From contig NZ_CACYJE010000003.1 of NCBI RefSeq assembly GCF_902774605.1, positions 62,001 through 126,000 on the forward strand: 64,000 bases of DNA, given 5' to 3'. The position numbers and the translations under genes are program-made. The notes under the pieces are model-generated. The model saw only the letters and a program-made list of their open reading frames with translations. It had not been told where the DNA came from and did not search any database. This document shows, one piece after another, positions 7,381 to 42,845 of the stretch (positions are counted from its first letter, which is position 1; the number at the start of each line of letters is the position of its first letter). Origin of the DNA: an uncultured Methanobrevibacter sp. (lineage in GTDB: Archaea; Methanobacteriota; Methanobacteria; Methanobacteriales; Methanobacteriaceae).

Positions 7381-7655
7381 TTTTAAGATTATAAAAATTT
7401 GCTGACAGATTAAAAACAATGATATGAAATGTTAAAATAGAATCTCCGACTAAAGTTAATATCAAAATCATTAATGTTATAGCCATGATCAAATTTTTTT
7501 GAAAGTATTGTCTGATATTGCAATATTGCTCCCACTTCTTAAAATTGTTTTAACTTAGCAAAATTGCTTTTATTTCAAACAAAAACTATATTTACTTACC
7601 AATTTAATATAATAATAAGTAATTTATCCTTAATTAATTGAAAGGAGGAGTAGTT

Positions 7656-8480
7656 ATGGATGAAAAATATGCTATCAAATTATTTGATGAATATAAAATC
7701 AGAACAAAATGGGATCCTGAAATCGAGGATTACTATTATTCAATAATAGACGTTATTGCAGTACTTACAGAAAGTAAAAACCCTAGTGCTTATTGGAGAA
7801 AATTAAAACAAAGATTATCTGAAGAATCTAATGAAAGTGTGACAAATTGTCACAGGTTGAAAATGCCTGCTAAAGATGGTAAAATGCGCGAAACTGATGT
7901 GGCAAATACCAAAGAATTATTACGCCTCATTCAGTCAGTCCCTTCACCAAAAGCAGAACCATTCAAACAATGGCTAGCCCAAATGGGTAAAGAAAGACTT
8001 GAAGAAATAGCAGACCCTGAAATTGCCATGCAAAGGGCAATCAATACCTATCGCGAAAAGGGCTACACCGAAGAATGGATAACCCAAAGAATGAGAAGTA
8101 TTGAAACCAGAAAGGAACTAACCGCCGAATGGAATAGGGTCGGAGTTAACGAAGGAATCGAATATGCAATATTAACAAATGATATCTCAAAAGCATGGTC
8201 TGGAATGTCAACAAAAGAATACAAACAATACAAAGGACTTAGAAAAGAGAGTTTAAGAGACAACATGACAAATCTTGAACTAATTTTTAACATGTTGGCA
8301 GAAGCATCAACAACCGAAATAAGCAAAGTTGAAAATCCCGATGGTTTTGAAGACAGCCGTGATGTTGCAAAACGTGGAGGAAACATTGCAGGAAATGCAA
8401 GGCAAGAACTTGAAGAAGTAACCGGCAAATCAGTCATCAGTAAAAAGAATTCTAAAAATCCTGAATTATTGGATGAATAA
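7656..8480 (+). CDS. Bro-N / DinD-like phage antirepressor-type protein
   Basis: 274 aa from ATG 7656, which follows GGAGGAG; the upstream in-frame TTG at 7638 overlaps that site and is rejected. The N-terminal 110 residues carry the Bro-N pattern: YYSIIDVIAVLTESKNPSAYW, then LKMPAKDGKMRETDVANT and LLRLIQSVPSPKAEPFKQW. The C-terminal part (GYTEEWITQRMRSIETRKEL, VEYAILTNDISKAWSGMS-like) resembles the DinD-type extension. Bro-N proteins bind DNA and are common in phages and mobile islands. The flanking repeats and toxin genes fit an accessory island. Target unknown. Confidence 0.75.
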   Translation: MDEKYAIKLFDEYKIRTKWDPEIEDYYYSIIDVIAVLTESKNPSAYWRKLKQRLSEESNESVTNCHRLKMPAKDGKMRETDVANTKELLRLIQSVPSPKAEPFKQWLAQMGKERLEEIADPEIAMQRAINTYREKGYTEEWITQRMRSIETRKELTAEWNRVGVNEGIEYAILTNDISKAWSGMSTKEYKQYKGLRKESLRDNMTNLELIFNMLAEASTTEISKVENPDGFEDSRDVAKRGGNIAGNARQELEEVTGKSVISKKNSKNPELLDE

Positions 8481-8619: not shown

Positions 8620-9198
8620 TCAATTAACATATTCATTTATTCCTGTGAGCTTTTCAATATCAGAATAATCCCAATATTTGTTCTCCCAGTGATAGTACAC
8701 ATCTTTTCTTTTCTTGAAAATCCTGAATGGAACAGTAGTATTATCATAAATATGAACAATATCACAAATTTCAACCAATTCAGGAATTAATTTTAGTGCC
8801 TTATAATATCTTGATTTGATTTTATCTTCAGGAACAGGATGGCCGCCCATTGATTCCCTCATTCTCACTCTTGCCACATTAATTCTAAAATCAGAAGTTA
8901 AAACATAAATACATCTTATAAAAAATCCTTTTTCTTTAGCTTTTTTAAGCAAATTAATATTTCTATCAGTAGAAAGCACAGTTTCAAATGTAAAATCTTC
9001 AAAATTATCCAACATTGATTCTCTAAGTTCTTCAGCTTTAACTGCAGCTTCTAAATCACTGCACAAACTTGATTTTTTAATATCATCGGCATTAATGTAA
9101 ACACCAACAGTTCTGGCCATACGAGTTATTGTGGTCTTTCCACTACCGTTTGGACCTGCAAAAACAATGATTTCAGGAAGTCTTTCAGTCTTTGACAT
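8620..9198 (-). CDS. Zeta-toxin-like P-loop kinase
   Basis: 192 aa. The Walker A loop GPNGSGKTT (about residues 15-23), the NADDI substrate loop and the FETVLS motif are those of zeta toxins, which phosphorylate UDP-sugars or related nucleotides in toxin-antitoxin systems. RVRMRESMGGHPVPEDKI forms the lid-like region. ATG 9198 (MSKTERLP) follows GGAGAG; the ATG at 9213 is too close to that site. It overlaps the end of the 64-aa gene by 14 bp, so the two are coupled. A housekeeping small-molecule kinase is the alternative. Confidence 0.75.
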   Translation of the reverse strand: MSKTERLPEIIVFAGPNGSGKTTITRMARTVGVYINADDIKKSSLCSDLEAAVKAEELRESMLDNFEDFTFETVLSTDRNINLLKKAKEKGFFIRCIYVLTSDFRINVARVRMRESMGGHPVPEDKIKSRYYKALKLIPELVEICDIVHIYDNTTVPFRIFKKRKDVYYHWENKYWDYSDIEKLTGINEYVN

Positions 9199-9379
9199 AA
9201 ACTCTCCTTCCATCAGGATATTCTAAATAAGCGCATTTAGTTTCATCATCATAACCAGCAATAGGAAGTCCTTTAATTCTACATATTTCTTGATCAATTC
9301 TAATAGCTGCTTTAAATCTTTCAGTAAGCTCTTCATCAGAAATGCCACAAGTAGAATCCAATTCATTACCTTCAGTCAA
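9185..9379 (-). CDS. Small partner of the zeta-like kinase, probable antitoxin
   Basis: 64 aa, starting with TTG at 9379 seven bases after GGGAGG. It is acidic in its first half (TEGNELDSTCGISDEELTERF) and ends in a short beta-hairpin-like piece (AYLEYPDGRRVYVKD). No family is recognised with certainty. Placement directly ahead of, and overlapping, a zeta-like kinase is the standard antitoxin-first order. Antitoxin function is inferred from context alone. Confidence 0.6.
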   Translation of the reverse strand: MTEGNELDSTCGISDEELTERFKAAIRIDQEICRIKGLPIAGYDDETKCAYLEYPDGRRVYVKD

Positions 9380-37820: not shown

Positions 37821-38102
37821 CTAATGGAAAAATGCTAATATTCCCGGCATTGCACCTAGCATTGACTGGAGACCTAGAATGAAGATTGCAAGACCTCCGA
37901 TGAAGTTAATGGCTCTTGCATATTTCATGGCAATTTTTGTACCGAAAGTTCCAAGTAAAAACCATATAATAACCGCAGTTAAACTCAATGCAGCCAATCC
38001 CACTGGGTTTACACCCAAAGAAACCCCTTGAGCGGCCAGGATAAGGTTTTCAATGTTACCAAATACTATTAATCCTAAAAACTGTCTTAATTCCCTATCC
38101 AT
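37821..38102 (-). CDS. Three-helix membrane protein, half-transporter B
   Basis: 93 aa with three hydrophobic helices. FGNIENLILAAQGVSLGVNP and FIGGLAIFILGLQSM match its neighbour closely. The acidic-Asn motif inside helix 1 and the glycine-rich helix 3 resemble one repeat of LysE/TerC/MntP-type six-helix transporters. It starts 1 base after the neighbour's stop with AGGGG as SD. A two-subunit carrier is inference. Confidence 0.65.
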   Translation of the reverse strand: MDRELRQFLGLIVFGNIENLILAAQGVSLGVNPVGLAALSLTAVIIWFLLGTFGTKIAMKYARAINFIGGLAIFILGLQSMLGAMPGILAFFH

Positions 38103-38103
38103 A

Positions 38104-38370
38104 TTATTCGCCCCTAATAGAAGTTATCATTGCTTGGGCACCTAAAATGAAAATAGCAAGCCCACCTATAAATTCAATGAAGCTAACGTATTGAATGAAA
38201 GTTTGAGTAGCAAAAGTTCCAATTATAAGCCATAAAGAAACGCAAATGATACTTGCAATAGCCAATTTGAGTGGATTTACTCCCGCTACAACACCCTGTG
38301 ATGATAAAACCAAGTTTTCAATATTCCCAAATATTATTAATCCCACTAAAGGTAAATATTGCTCCAACAT
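38104..38370 (-). CDS. Three-helix membrane protein, half-transporter A
   Basis: 88 aa from ATG 38370, which follows GGTGAT; ATG-like codon at 38382 rejected. IIFGNIENLVLSSQGVVAGVNP and FIGGLAIFILGAQAM are paralogous to the next gene. TTTATATATT on the minus strand near 38435 is the likely TATA box, so this is the first gene of the glycosyltransferase transcript. Confidence 0.65.
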   Translation of the reverse strand: MLEQYLPLVGLIIFGNIENLVLSSQGVVAGVNPLKLAIASIICVSLWLIIGTFATQTFIQYVSFIEFIGGLAIFILGAQAMITSIRGE

Positions 38371-38595
38371 CCAAATCACCATTTCCCCTAAAAAAAGTAA
38401 TGTGTTACTAAATAATATTAAAGGATTATAATATATAAACCTATCATTAACATGGCATATATTTTTGATTTTTGAATTGAAGAATATTTAATTCTTAAAT
38501 AGAAAAAACAATAAAATAATGAATAAAATTATAATAAATAATGAAAAAAATATATGAAAATTTAATCAGAGAGGTATATTTCAAGTGTAAACCAT

Positions 38596-40176: not shown

Positions 40177-41043
40177 TCATCTTTTAACTAGGTTAAACAA
40201 GTATTCTCCATAATCGGTTTTCTTAAGCTCTTCAGCTGTCTCCAACAGTTGGTCGTCATCAATGTATCCTTTGCGATATGCTATCTCTTCCAGACATGCT
40301 ATGTAGAGGCCTTGCCTTTTCTGTATTGTCTCAATGAAGTTTGATGCCTCAAGCAGTCCGGCATGTGTTCCAGTATCAAGCCATGCCATACCACGACCGA
40401 GCAGCTCAACTTTAAGCTTTCCCCTTTTGAGGTATTCCTCGTTGACCGAGGTGATTTCAACTTCACCCCTGTCTGACGGCTTGACGTTCTTGGCTATCTC
40501 TATCACGTCATTGTCGTAGAAGTACAGTCCCGGCACGATGTAATTTGACTTTGGCTTTTCCGGCTTTTCCTCTATTGACAATACATTCCACTCGTCATCG
40601 AACTCGACCACACCGAAAGCTTCCGGGTTGTTGGTGTAGTATCCGAATATCACTGCACCCTCCTTCAAATCGGTTGCCCTTTCAAGTATCTCGGTGAACC
40701 TGTGGCCGTGAAAGATATTGTCTCCCAAAATGAGCGCAACGTTATCGTCGCCGATGAATTCCTCGCCGATTATGAATGCTTCGGCCAGTCCGTTAGGGTT
40801 TTCCTGAACGGCATATTCAAAAGTGATGCCGAGGCTTGACCCGTCTCCGAGCAAGTCCTGATACATTGGCAGGTCCCTTGGAGTTGATATGATCAGTATC
40901 TCCTTGATTCCTGCAAGCATCAATACTGATATCGGATAGTAAATCATTGGTTTATCGTAAAGTGGCAGTAATTGTTTTGAAACCGCCTTGGTAATAGGAT
41001 ATAGGCGAGTTCCAGAACCGCCTGCTAAAACAATTCCTTTCAT
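40177..41043 (-). CDS. rfbA: Glucose-1-phosphate thymidylyltransferase
   Basis: 288 aa. [31 protein letters not shown] is the nucleotidyltransferase signature region; LGDNIFHGH and [11 protein letters not shown] follow. It makes dTDP-glucose. ATG 41043 follows GTGAT; GTG at 41052 overlaps it. TATA-like CTATATAAAT (minus, about 41078-41087) gives rfbA-C-B their own promoter, separate from rfbD. Confidence 0.95.
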
Positions 41044-41255
41044 AATAATCACTTATAAAAATATCTATTTCAATTCATTTATATAGATTGGCAAGACCTG
41101 AAATATCCCATTACCCGCAAATTTCAAAATTGATTTCAACTCGTTAAATGCTAAACTAAAATCAATTAAATCATTATTAAACAATTTATGATGAAACTCA
41201 GGGCGTAAGGGAACTGCTAATTTGAATTTCAAAAAAAAATAATAATTTGAATTAA

Positions 41256-41480
41256 TTAATATATGAATGTTAAAAAATCATTCTCGGATGCGGCATCTAT
41301 AAAGGTGTCAAGAATATCCTTGTCAACCTCATCCGGATTAATCAATTCAATTTCACATTCCATTTCAGTCAGGCAATCATATAGAGCATCCAGATTCTTA
41401 CCGTAGTAATCGGGCAGGTTCAATGCCTCCATCAAATAGTCATGCCCGTCCCGTTTGATTAATTTGCCGTCCAATTGCAT
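41256..41480 (-). CDS. Barstar-like ribonuclease inhibitor
   Basis: 74 aa from ATG 41480, whose SD GAGGT lies in the last codons of the barnase gene. ALNLPDYYGKNLDALYDCLTEM aligns with the barnase-binding helix of barstar: Tyr29, Asp35 and Asp39 are conserved, Trp38 is Tyr and Glu76 is Asp. It should bind the RNase in the cytoplasm and protect the producer. Immediate downstream partner of the barnase gene on the same transcript. Confidence 0.88.
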   Translation of the reverse strand: MQLDGKLIKRDGHDYLMEALNLPDYYGKNLDALYDCLTEMECEIELINPDEVDKDILDTFIDAASENDFLTFIY

Positions 41481-41481
41481 T

Positions 41482-41931
41482 TTAAACCTCAGTGAATGTG
41501 TTGTAGTGATCGTCAGTGTAGTACACCTTATAATCACCGGTATTGTAAACTATCCTTTCGGCCCCACGACTGGTTCCGTTAGCGTTGATGTCGCATTCGA
41601 CGTATCTTGAATCGCTGTCGGGAAGTACATGTTGCCTGTTGGTGAATGTGTCTCCGCCTATGCTTTTTCCAGGAGCATATTTCTTAAGGGGTCCCCCATG
41701 CCAACCTAGGCTTTTGGCCTCTTTCTTGGTTATGTAATTGCTTGGAAGCTTATGATACTCCTTGATGTAAGCTGAAACCTCATTCACTGTGCAGTATTCT
41801 CCATCTTCCACTACATTAACATCACTATTGTCATGGCCGAAGTTTAAAAAGTCCAGAAAACCTGCACTTACGGCACCGATGCTGAATAGGGCGATGATTA
41901 ATGCAATGATTAAAACTAGTTTCTTGTTCAT
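41482..41931 (-). CDS. Secreted barnase-like ribonuclease
   Basis: 149 aa. A signal peptide (about residues 1-23, MNKKLVLIIALIIALFSIGA, cleaved near VSA/GF) leads to a barnase domain. The match to Bacillus barnase is close: EYHKLPSNYITKKEAKSLGW, APGKSIGGDTFTNRQ, DINANGTSRGAERIVY and DHYNTF. All catalytic residues have equivalents: Lys27 (HKLP), Glu73 (VECDIN), Arg83, Arg87 and His102. It should cut RNA outside the cell. Its ATG overlaps the rfbD stop (ATGA), so it is read on the rfbD transcript. Confidence 0.92.
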   Translation of the reverse strand: MNKKLVLIIALIIALFSIGAVSAGFLDFLNFGHDNSDVNVVEDGEYCTVNEVSAYIKEYHKLPSNYITKKEAKSLGWHGGPLKKYAPGKSIGGDTFTNRQHVLPDSDSRYVECDINANGTSRGAERIVYNTGDYKVYYTDDHYNTFTEV

Positions 41932-42767
41932 TTTATCAACTCAACATATTCTTTTATTGCTTCTTTATAATCTCTCAATGGTTCAAAACCGTTTTTTATC
42001 CAGTTCCTGTTTTCCAGGACGGAGTAGTGCGGTCTTGGTGCCGGCCTTGCAAACTCGGCTGCAGTCACGGGAATCACCTTAACGTCAACATCCGCTATTT
42101 CAAAAATGTATCTTGCAAACTCGCACCATGAGCAGCTTCCGGAATTTGTCAAATGGTATGTTCCATAGCAATCGGTTTCTATCAGCTCAGAGATTCCTTG
42201 AGCCAGATCAGGAGTGTAGGTTGGAGTTCCCACCTCATCATACACCACTGTTATTTCAGAGTGGTTCTTGGCCAGTTCAAGCATTGTCTTTGGGAAGTTG
42301 CCTCCGTTCAAGCCGTACAGCCATGCGGTACGGATTATGAAGTACTTGTCAAGTATTTCCAAAATGGCCTCCTCGCCCTGAAGCTTGCTTTTGCCGTAGA
42401 CGCTGATCGGACCTATCTCATCATCCTCAACCCATGGGCGAGTGTTCTCGCCGTTGAAAATGTAATCTGTGCTGATATGGACCAGTGGAGAGTCTATTTC
42501 CTTGCATGCAATGGCCAGGTTTCTAACCCCCTCGCCATTTACGGCATATGCCATGTCCTGATTTTCCTCACAACCGTCAACATTGGTGTATGCAGCTGAA
42601 TTGATGACCAGGTCTGGTTTGTTTTCAACTATAAACTCCAGCACATGTTCCCTGTCAGTGATATCCAATGTCTTGGAAGTGGTTAGGATCAAGTCATGCC
42701 TGTCCTCCAGGACTTTTGTCAAGTCGTGACCGAGCATTCCATTGGAACCTGTTATTAAAATCTTCAT
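41928..42767 (-). CDS. rfbD: dTDP-4-dehydrorhamnose reductase
   Basis: 279 aa. ILITGSNGMLGHDL binds NADPH; NSAAYTNVDGCEEN, STDYIFNG and YGKSKLQGE are family motifs. Last step of dTDP-L-rhamnose synthesis. ATG 42767 follows GTGAT; a GTG at 42776 is the alternative. First gene of a transcript that continues into barnase and barstar, split from rfbA-C-B by that pair and a 203-bp gap. Confidence 0.94.
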   Translation of the reverse strand: MKILITGSNGMLGHDLTKVLEDRHDLILTTSKTLDITDREHVLEFIVENKPDLVINSAAYTNVDGCEENQDMAYAVNGEGVRNLAIACKEIDSPLVHISTDYIFNGENTRPWVEDDEIGPISVYGKSKLQGEEAILEILDKYFIIRTAWLYGLNGGNFPKTMLELAKNHSEITVVYDEVGTPTYTPDLAQGISELIETDCYGTYHLTNSGSCSWCEFARYIFEIADVDVKVIPVTAAEFARPAPRPHYSVLENRNWIKNGFEPLRDYKEAIKEYVELIK

Positions 42768-42845
42768 GTTCATCACTTAAAAATTAATATATGTTAAAAT
42801 ATATATTATATTTAATATTTAAAAAGGAAGGGAGATGGAGTAATT

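Follow-up and report, generated by a model that had tools for sequence, protein, structure and literature searches.

Based on sequence, structural-model and phylogenetic analyses, we propose that the uncultured Methanobrevibacter sp. studied here encodes an exported barnase and its inhibitor barstar, which may serve to break down RNA at the cell surface and probably descend from a single bacterial transfer. The pair lies in the window, that is, the whole 64,000-nucleotide stretch of DNA that was analysed (Table 1). The barnase would be made from the rfbD transcript and exported via Sec; after cleavage at AVSA|GF, it would either leave the cell or stay in the pseudomurein wall. Outside the membrane, it would cut RNA after guanosine, and barstar would bind unexported barnase and so protect the cytoplasm. 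In the RNA-rich gut, breakdown of extracellular RNA at the surface may supply phosphate or nucleotides or may clear RNA. A gut Clostridia-like bacterium would have donated the pair to the Methanobacteriaceae in a single transfer, with probable later movement between methanogen genera. The pair would have inserted once into the rfbD-rfbA junction, in an ancestor shared by most species of the window's genus, and then been retained vertically. We consider the identity of the pair and the export of barnase to be nearly certain, hold this evolutionary account with high confidence, and regard the explanation as a whole as likely.

Table 1. Coordinates of the genes and other features discussed in the text (window positions unless a locus is named)
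Feature	Position	Strand	Remarks
Barnase precursor (guanyl-specific RNase, PF00545), 149 aa	41482-41931	-	Profile, PDB match and model
Barstar (PF01337), 74 aa, compact form	41256-41480	-	ATG at 41480, 1 nt after the barnase stop (TAA)
rfbD (dTDP-4-dehydrorhamnose reductase, TIGR01214)	41928-42776	-	TGA stop overlaps barnase ATG (ATGA)
Barstar-rfbA spacer	41053-41255	-	T9 tract about 20 nt after barstar stop
rfbA (glucose-1-phosphate thymidylyltransferase, TIGR01207)	40177-41052	-	Next gene downstream of the pair
N-G-T glycosylation sequon	41572-41580	-	Just before barnase R83
Two tandem membrane proteins, about 92 aa each	37821-38382	-	Mutually similar; after the rfb genes
Zeta-toxin-like P-loop protein	8620-9379	-	PF06414, E=1.5e-7
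BRO-N domain protein (PF02498)	7638-8480	+	Adjoins the zeta-toxin-like gene
Surface-type, adhesin-like protein, 1508 aa	51520-56046	-	DUF11 repeats and beta-helix region
Barnase without recognisable barstar (G007, g6)	L143:3088-3546		R59E
Barnase with internal loss (G072)	L149:7883-8439		Lost stretch includes E73 and R83; barstar intact
Barnase with C-terminus out of frame (G034)	L148:7226-7678		H102 lost; barstar intact
Barnase without usual start codon at the expected place (G120)	L062:7423-7923		Frame open
Second barstar-like genes (g12)	L068:7075-7320, L092:8716-8958, L093:7144-7386, L095:7122-7364, L112:7332-7571, L125:2016-2258

The original prediction described a barnase with a signal peptide and five catalytic residues, directly coupled to a barstar carrying Tyr29, Asp35 and Asp39; both descriptions held, and the gene boundaries proved exact. 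Judged from its sequence, the window barnase is a member of the guanyl-specific N1/T1 RNase family (PF00545): it matched the profile over positions 4-97 of 98 (E=3.8e-18; 66.3 bits against a cut-off of 24) and barnase in the PDB with E=2e-26. The AlphaFold model had a pLDDT of 87.5 over the precursor and about 90-98 in the RNase domain (residues about 48-149), and its TM-score of 0.89-0.91 (by target length) against solved barnase places the protein in the barnase fold. Precursor residues K69, E112, R122, R126 and H142 correspond to barnase K27, E73, R83, R87 and H102, and R99 to R59, so that all six catalytic positions are present. The suggested alignment to the Bacillus proteins showed intact catalytic and interface residues. 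All 87 methanogen barnases compared keep K27, E73, R83 and R87; 86 have H102 and 85 have R59. A disulfide was considered and rejected: the cysteine after E73 is invariant and the second one is variable, so no disulfide pair is implied. The sequon before R83 is kept in the window's genus (g1) and in g12, not in g9.

Export is indicated by a putative signal peptide at about residues 1-23, in which a hydrophobic region precedes AVSA|GF, a signal-peptidase-I-like site assigned by eye. Classed from sequence by eye and with simple patterns, the leaders of related barnases are of the AXA type in the window's genus, carry a lipobox in g2 and in the majority of g9 members, and resemble an uncleaved anchor in g12. 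The nearest bacterial barnases have lipobox (tethered) leaders.

The barstar matched PF01337 with E=3.8e-12 (46.5 bits against a cut-off of 23.4), covering only positions 14-48 of the 96-position profile. A profile of its orthologues, however, aligned end to end with PDB barstar (E=5.5e-16), and the model (pLDDT 96; TM 0.77 to 1brs_D) has the barstar fold. The alignment explains its small size, since the region after the inhibitor helix has been trimmed; an alternative GTG start at 41537 would give a 93-aa open reading frame. Residues Y25, D31, D35, D62 and E66 correspond to barstar Y29, D35, D39, E76 and E80. All 84 methanogen barstars keep the inhibitor-helix residues Tyr29, Asp35 and Asp39, and 82 of them have Asp at the position of Glu76. 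Six Methanosphaera-like (g12) genomes additionally carry a tandem second barstar-like gene, where other residues stand in place of the inhibitor helix motif YYGxNLDALYDCL; the gene is conserved among the six and may have a new partner.

One alternative is that the pair works inside the producing cell as a toxin-antitoxin or abortive-infection system, with barnase acting once barstar is lost. The tight packing of the genes and the lethality of barnase without its inhibitor speak for this reading. However, the methanogen barnases carry N-terminal export or anchor segments, the toxin gene comes first, and the window barstar is a single domain with no second or DNA-binding domain. Moreover, searches of phage records and of viral contigs returned no match. 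We therefore consider this alternative very unlikely. Assignment as a type II toxin-antitoxin module was rejected because such modules need a cytoplasmic toxin and usually a DNA-binding antitoxin.

The original prediction rightly took Bacillus as the best-known source of barnase and barstar, but its implication that the pair is rare in methanogens was ruled out by whole-genome searches. PF00545 occurs, always in single copy, in 89 of 139 Methanobacteriaceae genomes, with carriers in 5 of 17 genera. In the window's genus, 56 of 67 genomes have it; beyond the family, the phylum genome set contained no additional carriers. Many of the surveyed genomes are metagenome-assembled genomes (MAGs), and an absent pair can therefore be absent sequence. 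Named relatives are Methanobrevibacter and Methanosphaera of goat, deer, buffalo and similar guts. Carriage on plasmids was rejected, as only four records of the plasmid collection matched, at least three of them chromosome-sized. Barstar adjoins barnase in 87 of the 89 genomes. In one of the two exceptions (G083), the contig end cuts the locus and the barstar start is visible. The barnase of G007, which has no recognisable barstar, has Glu in place of R59, a residue at the interface with both RNA and barstar. None of the 50 barnase-free family genomes contained barstar, so there are no orphan immunity genes among them. Three further barnase genes are irregular (Table 1); in G034, a partial MAG, this could stem from faulty assembly.

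Searches of other genomes of the window's genus recovered a conserved pair with a nearly constant upstream flank, in agreement with the predicted placement behind rfbD. On the minus strand of the window, the order is rfbD, barnase, barstar, a spacer of about 200 nt, rfbA, rfbC and rfbB. Within the genus, the pair directly follows rfbD at 55 of 56 loci, and the ATGA overlap recurs at 42 of 53. What follows barstar differs between loci (rfbA, an ABC-2 transporter gene and others); where it is rfbA, this gene mostly starts within 9-80 nt, and the pair therefore mostly lies inside the operon. The window spacer is longer than that, and its T9 tract is possibly an archaeal terminator. A conserved terminator at this place was rejected because a T run of 6 or more follows barstar in only 19 of 53 relatives. 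Scans for bacterial-type promoters and terminators, models that suit archaea poorly, gave no more hits than chance.

This arrangement could mean that the pair is functionally coupled to rhamnose or surface-glycan synthesis, with rfbD translation setting the barnase level for a wall-related reason. The near-constant position after rfbD, the overlap and the frequent position inside the operon speak for such coupling. Yet the other two main genera keep the pair at unrelated places, beside the threonyl-tRNA synthetase gene in g9 and at yet other sites in g12. It follows that the rfb context characterises the window's genus, not the module, and that linkage to rhamnose genes is not essential. Moreover, a single insertion followed by inheritance explains the conservation after rfbD. 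The functional tie to surface glycans that had been put forward was thus not borne out, and we judge it improbable.

Elsewhere in the window, a 64-aa open reading frame that overlaps the zeta-toxin-like gene on its upstream side is a possible antitoxin. The BRO-N family, represented by the adjoining gene, is frequent in viruses and mobile elements. The tandem membrane proteins after the rfb genes gave nothing over the cut-off in Pfam or NCBIfam and occur in other genomes of the genus. The adhesin-like protein was the remaining side observation (Table 1).

The predicted transfer was upheld by a tree that included bacterial homologues. In a maximum-likelihood tree of 94 barnase domains, whose bacterial sample leans to close relatives and whose roughly 107 columns leave many inner forks unresolved, all methanogen barnases group in a single clade (100/95) that falls within Clostridia of gut and rumen, beside two rumen Lachnospiraceae. 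PF00545 occurs in 35 of 245 genomes when the class of Faecalicatena contorta is sampled evenly. The rfbD-type barnases of the window's genus branch inside the g12 grade; a clade uniting g1 and g9 was rejected (p-AU 0.012), and a single g12 clade was not recovered in the tree and not rejected (p-AU 0.11). These results make transfer between methanogen genera likely, though not proven. A midpoint-rooted rfbD+ugdM tree covered 64 genomes. Seven genomes without the pair diverge early in it and 55 of the 57 genomes of the derived group carry the pair, which amounts to 3 label changes; the pair-free G067 and G074 are nested among carriers. In addition, rfbD adjoins rfbA in 7 of 9 pair-free relatives examined. 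The simplest reading of these sequences would be one insertion into the rfbD/rfbA operon followed by about two losses.

Bacterial relatives are up to 60% identical, and bacterial contamination of the assembly, or else a decayed pseudogene, might be suspected. However, the pair and its rfbD flank recur in 55 genomes of the genus, single-contig ones included, the frames are open and under strong purifying selection, and the G+C content of both genes is similar to that of the window. The conserved flanks refute an artefact, for which we see practically no chance.

We next weighed what the exported RNase may do. The median omega (NG86) was lowest for the barnase domain (0.056), followed by rfbD (0.100) and barstar (0.169), each over 111 pairs; the leader region, over 98 pairs, had 0.214. 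Since dS was near saturation (medians 1.2-1.6), these values are rough and only their ranking should be trusted. They fit strong purifying selection on the barnase domain, with an apparent omega of about 0.06. Bacillus homologues are induced by phosphate starvation (PMC5021464). We favour a housekeeping RNase at the surface because of the purifying selection, the lack of orphan barstars and of phage or viral copies, and the tethered forms in relatives, and also because the system is uniform, single-copy and immobile and its Bacillus homologues respond to phosphate starvation. Against this, the pair is not known to be under Pho-type control and probably lies on a glycan-gene transcript. Our preference for a nutritional or surface role over a weapon is an evenly balanced judgement.

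The competing explanation is a secreted antibacterial or anti-archaeal RNase that enters competitors and cuts their RNA, with barstar as the immunity protein. Export and the toxin-then-immunity gene order fit this idea, and the G072 locus, where barnase has an internal deletion and barstar is whole, would suit it as well. Simple barnase-barstar pairs are regarded as possible incipient polymorphic toxin systems (Zhang et al. 2012, PMC3482391), and archaea are described as able to kill bacteria by secreted enzymes (PMC12352652). Selection that keeps a weapon active could also yield a low omega. However, the barnase has no delivery or trafficking domain, and a single invariant version exists, with no swapped toxin tips and no variation in the active site or interface. 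Moreover, none of the 50 barnase-free genomes keeps an immunity gene, and the barnases of relatives that have a lipobox or an anchor would not diffuse. Although the immunity gene lies directly downstream of barnase, as in polymorphic toxin systems, we rejected that class because it needs a multidomain toxin with a trafficking domain and exchangeable tips, whereas the 149-aa barnase consists of a leader and an RNase domain only. An anti-competitor role is thus possible, but we do not favour it and consider a secreted weapon of this kind rather doubtful. Less likely still is a fixed RNase weapon of bacterial origin aimed at bacterial neighbours, common to most host-associated Methanobacteriaceae and, in one genus, expressed in step with a surface-sugar gene; if true, it would mean archaeal antibacterial RNase warfare in the rumen.

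What seemed a curiosity becomes a general trait that can be tested in gut methanogens: an RNase of the exported type with its inhibitor, apparently gained once from gut Clostridia and kept by three genera under strong selection. Whether the system nourishes its owner or damages neighbouring cells matters for understanding the coexistence of methanogens with rumen bacteria, and the natural pair-free, barnase-broken and tethered versions offer ready comparisons.

Our literature search found no report coupling Methanobrevibacter with this barstar. Two earlier papers, however, already note simple barnase-barstar systems in a few methanoarchaea (Zhang et al. 2012, PMC3482391) and a putative secreted RNase (barnase) in Methanosphaera stadtmanae (PMC3445992), a member of the same archaeal family; these systems are of the same kind as ours. 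What is added to them, as far as the consulted passages go, is the spread of the pair, its single clade, the fixed rfbD insertion, the losses and the change of anchoring. Among bacteria, the lineages nearest to the methanogen clade are in rumen Lachnospiraceae and further Clostridia (L198, L205, L200 and L204); their pairs likewise have an adjacent barstar, but their leaders, often with a lipobox, and linkers are longer. Balifase and its inhibitor YrdF from Bacillus licheniformis, an RNase and a barstar-type inhibitor in one operon as here, have their own phosphate-responsive promoter and no rfb context (PMC5021464). Barnase and barstar of Bacillus amyloliquefaciens share the fold, the active-site residues and the principle of export with a cytoplasmic inhibitor, and the RNase domains are about 50% identical. 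In contrast, the barstar of that species has about 90 aa compared with 74 aa here, its Trp38 is replaced by Tyr, the leader and the host differ, and the genes in the window are joined to an rfb operon by ATGA coupling.
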